Assembly: GCA_951813535.1 (NCBI GenBank)
Contig: OX638345.1
Span: forward strand, 2,601,158 to 2,665,157
DNA length: 64,000 nt
DNA from: an uncultured Dehalococcoidia bacterium
Lineage (GTDB): Bacteria > Chloroflexota > Dehalococcoidia > Lucifugimonadales > UBA3495
Direction of reading: 5' to 3'
Under the pieces are notes generated by a model. That model searched no databases. It was not told the DNA's origin and saw nothing but the letters and a program-made list of their open reading frames with translations. Position 1 is the stretch's first letter. Each line of letters starts with the position of its first letter. The translations under genes were made by a program, and so were the position numbers. Below are positions 617 through 32,121 of this stretch, piece after piece.

Positions 617-1870
617 CTAATATACCACCCGCCGCTCTTCCAACTCGGCCAATTCGTCCTCGCCCAATCCGAGATAGCCGCACAGGACCTCGCGATTGTG
701 TTCCCCCAATAGCGGGGCATGGCGGCGCACCTGCGACGGTGTCTTGCTCAGGTTCCACATCAGGTTGAACACAGGCTCGGCTCCCAAAGCCGGGTGCTCC
801 GTATCGCTGTACAGACCTCTGGCCATAAAGTGCGGGTGGAAGAGCCGTTCCTCCGCCCCCAGCACCGGAGCCGCGGCCACACCATGAGATTGCAGGAGCT
901 CCGTTACGACGTCGGCCTCGTGTTCGGCCGTCCACCTGGATATGAGCGCATCCAGTTCCCGGCGATGGCGTTGACGCCGGTATTGGCTGCCGAACCGATC
1001 ATCGGCGGCCCACGCCGGCGAGCCCATGGCCCGCACCATTGACTGCCACTCCCCCTCCGATTTGACGGCAATGGACACCCATGTGTCGTCACCGGCGCAC
1101 GGGTAATTCCCGTAAGGCGCCATCGTGGGGTCGTAGTTGCCGCGCGGCTGGAGCGAACGCCCGGTCAGGGCCTGCTCCATGAGGCCCACACCCTGGGTAA
1201 CTACCGTCGCCCGGAGCATGGAGACGTCGATGTATTGTCCGTGGCCGGTGCGGTTCCGGTGCAAAAGAGCGGCCCCAATGGCGAAAACCGCATGAAGCGC
1301 GCCGCAGATGTCCCCGAAGGCATGCTTCAGACCCAGGGGGCCACCGCCTTCGTATCCCATGGTGCTGTCCAGTCCGGAAAGCGAACCTATCGACGGAGCG
1401 TATGCCCGCAGGTCCCGCAGCGGCCCGTCCTGCCCGGTGGAAGAAATGGACGCCATGACGATGTCGGGCTTGACCTGGCGCAGCGCCTCGTATCCCAGAC
1501 CCAATCGGTCCATAACTCCTGGCGAGAAGTTTTCGATCACCACGTCACAGCGAGCGATCAGACGTTTGGCCAACTCCACGGCGTCGGGTTCCGCGATGTT
1601 CAGCGTGACACTGAGTTTGCCCCGGTTCACGTTGTGAAACATGGGGTTCTGCTCGGGATCGGGCTGATCTCCCACGATGGGGCGGCCCATGCGCATGTAG
1701 TCCAGGCGCTGGCGGGTCTCGACCTTGATCACCTCCGCGCCCATATCGGCCAGCGCCATGCCGGGCAGTGCGCCGGCCAGCACCCAACCGAAGTCGAGGA
1801 CCCGATACCCGTTCAACACGCCCGGGCGTGCTTCCGCGCCGTTGTTGTTGGAATTCGACTGTTCAACCAT
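617..1870 (-). CDS. CaiB/BaiF family III CoA-transferase
   Basis: 417 aa, the normal length for family III CoA-transferases, which move CoA between carboxylic acids through an aspartyl-CoA thioester. It opens with the family signature (YRVLDFGWVLAGALPGM, then DMGAEVIKVE), has the NVNRGKLSVTLN and IENFSPGVMDRLGLGY segments, and carries the presumed catalytic aspartate in FGDICG, equivalent to Asp169 of formyl-CoA transferase. The C-terminal part (LLGEHNREVL) is also typical. The ATG at 1870 is the natural start. It sits second to last in a minus-strand operon with another CoA-transferase, a small membrane protein and a MaoC-type hydratase. Acid donor and acceptor cannot be read from sequence. 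Confidence 0.93.
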   Translation of the reverse strand: MVEQSNSNNNGAEARPGVLNGYRVLDFGWVLAGALPGMALADMGAEVIKVETRQRLDYMRMGRPIVGDQPDPEQNPMFHNVNRGKLSVTLNIAEPDAVELAKRLIARCDVVIENFSPGVMDRLGLGYEALRQVKPDIVMASISSTGQDGPLRDLRAYAPSIGSLSGLDSTMGYEGGGPLGLKHAFGDICGALHAVFAIGAALLHRNRTGHGQYIDVSMLRATVVTQGVGLMEQALTGRSLQPRGNYDPTMAPYGNYPCAGDDTWVSIAVKSEGEWQSMVRAMGSPAWAADDRFGSQYRRQRHRRELDALISRWTAEHEADVVTELLQSHGVAAAPVLGAEERLFHPHFMARGLYSDTEHPALGAEPVFNLMWNLSKTPSQVRRHAPLLGEHNREVLCGYLGLGEDELAELEERRVVY

Positions 1871-1879
1871 GTTGCACTC

Positions 1880-2140
1880 TTACTTTTGTTCGCGAGGCGG
1901 CACGATCCATGCCGCAACAGCCGGCATCACGGACAGGAGTGCCCCCGCAGCGACTTTCGTGTATCCGCCGCCGTAGACCAGGCTCAGTGTCCAGAGCAGT
2001 CCGAAGCAGATGGCGCCCACGATGATACCGGCGATGATTATGACTTCCGGGCGGTGGTTCTTCCGGATCGCGATCTGCCTGGCGATGAGGCAGCTCCCCA
2101 GGAAAACAACCACGCAGGCGATGACGACCCGGATCAACAT
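1880..2140 (-). CDS. Small integral membrane protein, function unknown
   Basis: About 86 aa with three hydrophobic segments: an N-terminal one (IRVVIACVVVFLGSCLI), one near residues 35-57 (VIIIAGIIVGAICFGLL) and one near 63-80, ending in a short polar tail. I take ATG 2140 as the start; a TTG two codons upstream (2146) is the alternative, and neither has a clear ribosome site. It ends 9 bases before the downstream CoA-transferase start, so it is probably co-transcribed with both CoA-transferases. I do not recognise a family. A role as a small transport accessory is possible but unsupported. Confidence 0.6.
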   Translation of the reverse strand: MLIRVVIACVVVFLGSCLIARQIAIRKNHRPEVIIIAGIIVGAICFGLLWTLSLVYGGGYTKVAAGALLSVMPAVAAWIVPPREQK

Positions 2141-28097: not shown

Positions 28098-28733
28098 ATG
28101 CAGCGGACGGCAATATTCGCATTATGGATAGTTGCGCTTGCCACCATCGCCTGCTCGACGGATCGCCAATCTGGGCAGACTATCTATGGCGGCAATTGTA
28201 GTCTGAATGGACAATCTGTCTCCTGCCTGGTATTCCAAGACCATATTACGACCGAGTCGATTGCCGACTTTACTGGGCTTGACTGTCGCGCTATGGCAAA
28301 CATCGCGAACCTCCGGACAGAAGGGTGGGCACAGGCGGAAGCTGCGGGCAAAGCATCGAACGACGAAAGGCTCCATGCCTGGCGTGGTATCGATGGCGCC
28401 GTCAAGCAACTGGGATGTGGAAAAGCCACTCCCACGCCCCCAGCTAGGCAAACCAGTATGAGCGATTGCAGCCTGAACGGACGTGCGGTGTCCTGCAAAG
28501 TATTCCAAGACCACATTATGGCTGAGTCGGTTGCCGATTTTACCGGGCTTGACTGCGATGATATGGCGAAAGTGGCTGGCCTCCGCATAGAAGGGTGGGC
28601 GCTGGCCGAAGCCACCGGGAAAATATCCACAAACGAAGGATACCACGCCGGGCGCGCCATCAGTTCCGCCGTAAATCAATTGAGATGCGGTAACAACAGC
28701 ACTTGGCAAGCGTATCTGAAAAGCTTGCCCTGA
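28098..28733 (+). CDS. Secreted or lipoprotein with two near-identical Cys-rich repeats
   Basis: 211 aa. A signal-like N-terminus ends LATIAC, so Cys19 may be lipidated, though position -3 is not the classic leucine. Two 75-residue repeats follow, starting at Cys34 and Cys124. Each begins CSLNG, has VFQDHI then ESxADFTGLDC, and ends in xCG; each carries four cysteines, suggesting two disulfides per unit. A proline-rich linker (TPTPPARQTS) joins them. No family is recognised. It starts 3 bases after the previous gene, so the two are co-transcribed. An extracytoplasmic binding role is a guess. Confidence 0.7.
   Translation: MQRTAIFALWIVALATIACSTDRQSGQTIYGGNCSLNGQSVSCLVFQDHITTESIADFTGLDCRAMANIANLRTEGWAQAEAAGKASNDERLHAWRGIDGAVKQLGCGKATPTPPARQTSMSDCSLNGRAVSCKVFQDHIMAESVADFTGLDCDDMAKVAGLRIEGWALAEATGKISTNEGYHAGRAISSAVNQLRCGNNSTWQAYLKSLP
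28197..28702 (+). repeat. Intragenic tandem duplication, 270-base period
   Basis: The two coding repeats start at 28197 and 28467. They retain shared stretches such as the codons for VFQDHI and ADFTGLDC, indicating a fairly recent duplication within the gene. Confidence 0.7.
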
Positions 28734-31377: not shown

Positions 31378-32121
31378 ATGAACCGGGCGACACCCATAAT
31401 GATCACAGCTATAGGCAAAACGCCCCGCCAATGCCTCCGGCGCGTTTTGCTCTCTCTCATCGTCCTCGCCCTGTGCGCCGCGGTGACGGGTTGCAACCAG
31501 ACCCCCGCTGAACCTCGCGGAAGCGATTACGGCGCCACCGTCGAAGCGCTGTTGCCCACTGCGGAGCCCACGGCGCCACCGACGCCCGATCCAACGTTTA
31601 CGCCCATTCCGCCCACCGACACGCCGGCGCCAACGTATACTCCCCGACCGCAGCCCACCTACACGCCGTGGCCCACACCAACCAGGGCTACGACTGAGGA
31701 CCGGCAACGGGCAATACCCTTCAACGCGCAGATGCTGGACGGGTCGGAATTTTCGCTGCCCGAGGCTTACGGTTCACCCACCCTTCTGGCATTCTGGGCG
31801 CCCTGGTGACCCCACTGTGGGCGGGAGTTGCCCGCCGTTGCATCCCTCTACCGGGAGAAACTGGACGACGCCGGCGTCGACGTCATCGGAGTTTCCCAGT
31901 TCAACACCACCGAGGCGGCCACCATAGAGTTTGTGGAGCGCAACCAACTCTCTTTTCCTAATGTGTATGACGAACGCGCGCAACTGGCTGGCGTGTACGA
32001 CATCAGGGGCGTCCCCAGCTACGTGTTCATCGACAAACAGGGCCGCATCGCCCATGTCAGTGCCGGCGCTCGCGGGGTCGCTTTAATCGAGGCCTGGTTG
32101 GACCAATTGTTGGCGGAGTAA
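31378..32121 (+). CDS. TlpA-like thioredoxin lipoprotein, candidate selenoprotein (Sec at UGA 31807)
   Basis: 247 residues if TGA 31807-31809 is read as selenocysteine (residue 144). Before the TGA: signal peptide, lipobox VTGC (Cys39), a Pro/Thr-rich spacer (residues about 60-105), and LDGSEFSLPEAYGSPTLLAF then WAPW. After it, in the same frame: PHCGRELPAVASLYREKL, ASYTV-free core, RGVPSYVFIDKQGRI and the stop at 32121. This aligns with TlpA/ResA-type LLxFWAxWCxxCxxELP, with the TGA exactly at the first cysteine, giving WUPHC. The cis-proline region (GVPSYVF) is intact. A hairpin follows the TGA. ATG 31378 has only a weak ribosome site; ATG 31399 is an alternative. A cell-surface thiol-disulfide or peroxide role is inferred. 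Confidence 0.8.
31816..31842 (+). promoter_or_regulatory. Candidate bacterial SECIS hairpin
   Basis: GGCGGG (31820-31825) and CCCGCC (31831-31836) form a perfect 6-bp stem with the 5-base loop AGTTG. TGT (31816-31818) may pair with GCA (31840-31842) across a small internal loop. The loop starts 16 bases after the TGA and has a G at position 2, within the range described for bacterial SECIS elements. Confidence 0.6.

Follow-up and report, generated by a model that had tools for sequence, protein, structure and literature searches.

Gene and protein architecture

The analysed window (64,000 nucleotides, 63% G+C, from an uncultured Dehalococcoidia bacterium) contains a plus-strand frame that runs from ATG to TAA and is interrupted once, by a TGA at codon 144 (Table 1). 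Both the sequence and the coordinates of this frame were re-checked. Reading through the TGA gives ...LLAFWAPWUPHCGRELPAV..., in which the N-terminal half of the domain ends in FWAPW, and PHCGREL, the GVP loop and a normal C-terminus follow. The read-through protein yields a single Pfam match spanning the TGA, to AhpC-TSA (PF00578, 8e-22, 77.9 bits against a cut-off of 26), and it also matches Redoxin across the same codon (PF08534, 1e-16, 61.2 bits against a cut-off of 26.6). The protein has both a WCxxC-type motif, with selenocysteine (Sec) for the first Cys, and a cis-Pro loop.

The nearest solved structures are StoA (3erw) and ResA (3c71). Scores against curated NCBIfam models fall under their cut-offs for ResA proper (NF002854, 86.1 bits versus 170), for StoA (78 bits versus 210) and for the ResA-like WAxxUGC selenoprotein (NF041054, 53.5 bits versus 300), the motif here being UPHC and not UGC. 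An AlphaFold2 model built from 5 close sequences (pLDDT 42.8) was too poor for use.

Table 1. Features of the candidate selenoprotein gene, in window coordinates, and the selD gene, in genome coordinates
Feature	Position	Strand	Details and basis
Whole candidate selenoprotein gene	31378..32121	+	247 residues including one Sec (U144); ATG 31378-31380, TAA 32119-32121
Lipoprotein-type signal peptide (predicted)	31378..31491	+	Hydrophobic LLSLIVLALCAA; sequence read by eye; orthologue leaders equivalent
Putative lipobox VTGC, Cys39 as lipidated residue	31483..31494	+	Sequence read by eye
Thr/Pro-rich linker	31534..31692	+	Sequence; length differs among orthologues
TlpA/ResA-type thioredoxin domain	31705..32118	+	Pfam; NCBIfam ResA below cut-off; PDB relatives
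TGA as predicted Sec codon, at first Cys of WCxxC	31807..31809	+	Invariant in 14/14 orthologues; Cys in other genera
Resolving Cys147 of UxxC motif (predicted), codon TGT	31816..31818	+	Sequence and codon alignment
SECIS-like hairpin, stem GGCGGG/CCCGCC, loop AGUUG with loop G	31820..31836	+	Pairing, covariation, frozen codons
Cis-Pro loop proline, GVP, P213	32014..32016	+	Sequence; almost invariant in family alignment
selD selenoprotein gene	G000:C1:1105770-1106690 (L082 1501-2421)	minus	HCAGUAAK

A preliminary description of this locus had placed the TGA exactly at the first catalytic Cys (WUPHC) of a frame that is intact on both sides, and the coordinates and the Pfam match agree with this placement. 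The Thr/Pro spacer, cis-Pro loop and intact C-terminus that it listed were found again by sequence reading, as were a putative signal peptide and lipobox. At the lipobox position the orthologues show IGC, LGC, AGC or LAC, followed by a linker of the same kind. With such a lipobox and linker, the domain would be anchored and mobile.

Upstream, on the opposite strand, lie genes for a methylmalonyl-CoA mutase and a Uma2 protein, and a methyltransferase and a MaoC-type protein are encoded downstream. This neighbourhood gives no clue to a redox partner or reaction. Elsewhere in the window, positions 28098-28733 encode a small protein of secreted or lipoprotein-like type (LATIAC), which carries an internal duplication (SCxVFQDHI...ADFTGLDC, twice) and has no Pfam match.

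Selenocysteine machinery and related genes

The selenocysteine reading given in the preliminary description calls for the bacterial Sec machinery, and the whole of it is present in the genome that contains the window (G000; 4.38 Mb, single contig): a tRNA-Sec gene (66 bits, anticodon tca), selA (542 bits), selB (355 bits) and selD (370 bits). The selD gene has an in-frame TGA of its own and therefore serves as an internal control that the organism reads UGA as Sec. The tRNA-Sec gene (L001 1497-1593) adjoins what by eye is an apparent Cys-type thioredoxin gene with the motif WCGPC (about 1600-1935, minus strand).

Elsewhere in the window TGA is an ordinary stop that ends 16 of the 41 long non-overlapping open reading frames, so the code is otherwise unchanged. 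Genetic codes in which UGA specifies Trp do exist, and a suppressor or an altered code might place Trp or Cys at codon 144. However, this normal use of TGA as a stop, the catalytic Cys rather than Trp that homologues have at this site, and the dedicated tRNA-Sec and SelB make such a reading very unlikely. A Cys-tRNA may read this UGA at a low level.

A paralogue in the same genome (G000:C1:1144254-1144823, minus strand; L072 1207-1623 corresponds to G000:C1:1144206-1144622) has a TGA at the same site, within WUPHC, and is predicted to be a second Sec-type lipoprotein of the family. Five other genomes of the genus also have paralogues with TGA at this site. One further locus (L077, G008:C144:41300-44300) is a tandem pair of Sec-type lipoprotein genes with the motifs WUERC and WUGYC, both with G, not C, after the UGA.

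Among 294 genomes of the class Dehalococcoidia surveyed with the family profile, Cys forms predominate. Outside the genus, the TGA-interrupted matches examined by reading comprise 11 copies in 9 genomes, all with the TGA at the first catalytic Cys; it follows W in 10 of them and T in one (L105). The alignment with homologues that the preliminary description had proposed places Cys (TGC or TGT) at this codon in 16 homologues of other genera and in no orthologue within the genus. In a tree of 47 proteins, whose Cys rows are few and were picked by similarity, which bears on any count of Sec gains, the 18 genus sequences group in a single all-Sec clade (100/100) whose branch is long; a second all-Sec clade holds ten sequences, mostly from other families. 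Recoding of UAG was considered for three TAG-bearing homologues (L106-L108) and rejected, the TAG being an ordinary terminal or upstream stop.

The distant all-Sec UxxC proteins (L096-L101, L104, L078 and L079) are spread across Dehalococcoidia families. Their cis-Pro loop is mostly replaced (QPSK, QSSK, QSTK and similar), which brings them near the description of Prx-like selenoproteins.

Conservation of the TGA and its hairpin

The open frame around the TGA is by itself little proof of read-through, because 49 TGAs in this 63% G+C window have at least 100 open codons before them and at least 80 after. What raises the case above chance is the family match across the TGA together with the same codon in 13 congeneric orthologues. 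The orthologue search covered 99 whole genomes, of which 14 represent the genus (the window's own and 13 others). Each of the 13 others carries an orthologue (53-79% identity) in which the codon matching 144 is the only in-frame TGA; Cys stands there in none of the 13. Thirteen complete copies align without gaps over 140 codons around an invariant TGA column; in the fourteenth (G005), which a contig end truncates, the TGA is retained.

The candidate SECIS hairpin (GGCGGG-AGUUG-CCCGCC) lies between 11 and 27 bases downstream of the TGA. Bacterial SECIS elements are described as stem-loops immediately 3' of the UGA with a small apical loop containing G (PMC1088965), and the hairpin fits this description. 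Its upper stem and loop coincide with codons +5 to +8 (CGG GAG TTG CCC), which are synonymously frozen in the 13 orthologues apart from one TTT, whereas nearby codons show up to seven variants.

Covariation was scored in 17 sequences, a set made up of the orthologues, a pair of close paralogues and a pair of distant Sec proteins. Every stem pair forms in 17 of 17 sequences (100%), and compensatory changes occur in five of the six pairs, with 16 double-change cells, many of which stem from the two distant sequences only. None of 500 shuffles matched this covariation, and shifting the stem partner by one to three bases abolishes pairing. The two distant stems are entirely rewritten (GCUCCG/CGGAGC in L078 and GCGCCG/CGGCGC in L079), with the distance from the UGA and the loop GUU kept. 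Other paralogues (CGGCAGUUGCCG) pair in another register with a four-base loop, as does the second gene in the window's own genome.

Folding energy was dropped as evidence for a SECIS element; the 42-nt hairpin of the window folds no more stably than composition-matched shuffles (z -0.21). The predicted element is supported instead by covariation and by the frozen codons. The hairpin has no match in Rfam, which to our knowledge has no general model for bacterial SECIS elements. A SECIS model searched against the bacterium's own genome recovers the window gene at 5e-16, and since the remaining matches are only marginal, the search is no listing of the selenoproteome. Two of these marginal matches (G000:C1:1935113-1935160 and G000:C1:3704438-3704482) have E 0.05, the level of the true paralogue, and may be further selenoprotein genes or chance.

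The hairpin also bears on whether the locus encodes two products, a truncated signal and linker lipoprotein and a separate downstream half starting at TTG 31828. A TTG-started frame of 97 amino acids does occupy 31828-32121, and partial termination at a Sec UGA is normal. Against this arrangement, the downstream product would have half of the thioredoxin fold and no catalytic motif, a single Pfam match covers the domain on both sides of the TGA, and the TTG lies inside the hairpin, which accounts for its conservation. We consider two separate products, or a regulated short form, to have a very slight chance of being correct.

The ratio pN/pS within the domain is 0.35 over the 36 codons before the TGA and 0.31 over the 103 codons after it, which indicates that purifying selection is equally strong on both sides. 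An in-frame TGA is a stop by default, and this genome does use it as one, so the gene might be a nonsense-mutated pseudogene whose remainder is debris. That reading is refuted by a downstream half that is conserved and under selection as strong as that upstream; the same TGA, and no other codon, in 14 of 14 orthologues and the covarying hairpin also count against it, and we give it hardly any credence. Relatives with a stop and decayed downstream sequence, which the preliminary description had named as contrary evidence, were not what the genus showed: the TGA is retained with an intact, selected downstream half. An error for TGC or TGT, each one base from TGA, has a negligible probability, being refuted by the recurrence of the TGA in independent metagenome-assembled genomes (MAGs) of different projects, and the TGA is also present in paralogues. 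The nearest named records are SAR202 and Dehalococcoidia MAGs, including bin87 of the sponge Aplysina aerophoba.

By all available computational tests, then, TGA 31807-31809 is almost certainly a selenocysteine codon.

Proposed function and relation to known selenoproteins

The Sec codon, the hairpin, the decoding machinery and selection on both halves of the gene are computationally established. It is very probable that SelB and tRNA-Sec decode this UGA as Sec with the hairpin just 3' of it serving as the bacterial SECIS element, and that the product is an exported TlpA/ResA-like protein, lipidated at Cys39, with a U144/Cys147 active site. Export and lipidation are predicted from family knowledge, and the Thr/Pro-rich linker would hold the domain away from the membrane. 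In the motif U144-P-H-C147, U144 would be the reactive selenol and C147 the resolving thiol. Proteins of the TlpA/ResA type carry out dithiol exchange outside the membrane, and Sec at the attacking position is a more reactive nucleophile. The product is most likely an exported, lipid-anchored Sec thiol-disulfide oxidoreductase, and its role outside the membrane is somewhat more likely that of a reductase acting on disulfides or similar oxidised substrates than that of an oxidase or peroxidase.

The usual reductant and partner of ResA/TlpA-type proteins is DsbD/CcdA. This genome encodes several exported thioredoxin-like proteins, yet it has no match to DsbD/CcdA (PF02683), which matches in 10 of 14 control genomes, or to VKOR (PF07884). 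A possible, distinctly tentative, interpretation is that the SAR202-type lineage relies on a lipid-anchored thioredoxin that is obligately Sec and receives electrons from a source other than DsbD/CcdA, such as a donor linked to quinones or cytochromes, or that the protein acts at the cell surface as a peroxidase or methionine-sulfoxide reductase dependent on selenium.

Several known groups resemble the protein. Thiol-disulfide isomerase-like UxxC selenoproteins (cd02966, TlpA-like), described from the Sargasso Sea and later, share the TlpA-like fold, Sec as the first residue of UxxC and a downstream bacterial SECIS element; they come from metagenome reads and other lineages, and it is by description that they are set apart from the window protein (PMC1088965, PMC13188914). 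Surveys and reviews also list Prx-like UxxC (PF00578), Redoxin UxxC (PF08534) and a UGC TlpA-family selenoprotein. The Prx-like and Redoxin selenoproteins share the Pfam domains and UxxC, but the window group retains the GVP cis-Pro loop that the distant Sec clade (L096-L101, L104) mostly does without. NF041054 is likewise ResA-like and has its Sec in the equivalent place after WAxx, but its motif is UGC rather than UxxC. ResA, StoA, TlpA and CcmG have the same fold and motif; they use Cys where the window protein would have Sec, and the CcdA/DsbD partner is absent here.

The preliminary description called this a candidate new selenoprotein, of a form that looked unusual. It is new as an orthologous group, and less unusual than proposed, UxxC families of TlpA fold and Prx-like type being already listed. 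What is new is a genus-wide, Sec-only, predicted lipid-anchored orthologous group within a known kind of selenoprotein. Our literature search found no paper that pairs SAR202 with 'selenoprotein', and the sole relevant one for SAR202 and 'selenocysteine' does not report this protein; its finding is that sponge-symbiont bins are enriched in SelA and SelB (PMC5649159).

Standard annotation is expected to split or truncate this gene. With no recognisable membrane electron shuttle, the finding raises the question of how an extracytoplasmic selenol is recycled. It would also mean that exported thiol-redox proteins of SAR202-type sponge associates are selenium-dependent, which is consistent with that SelA and SelB enrichment (PMC5649159).
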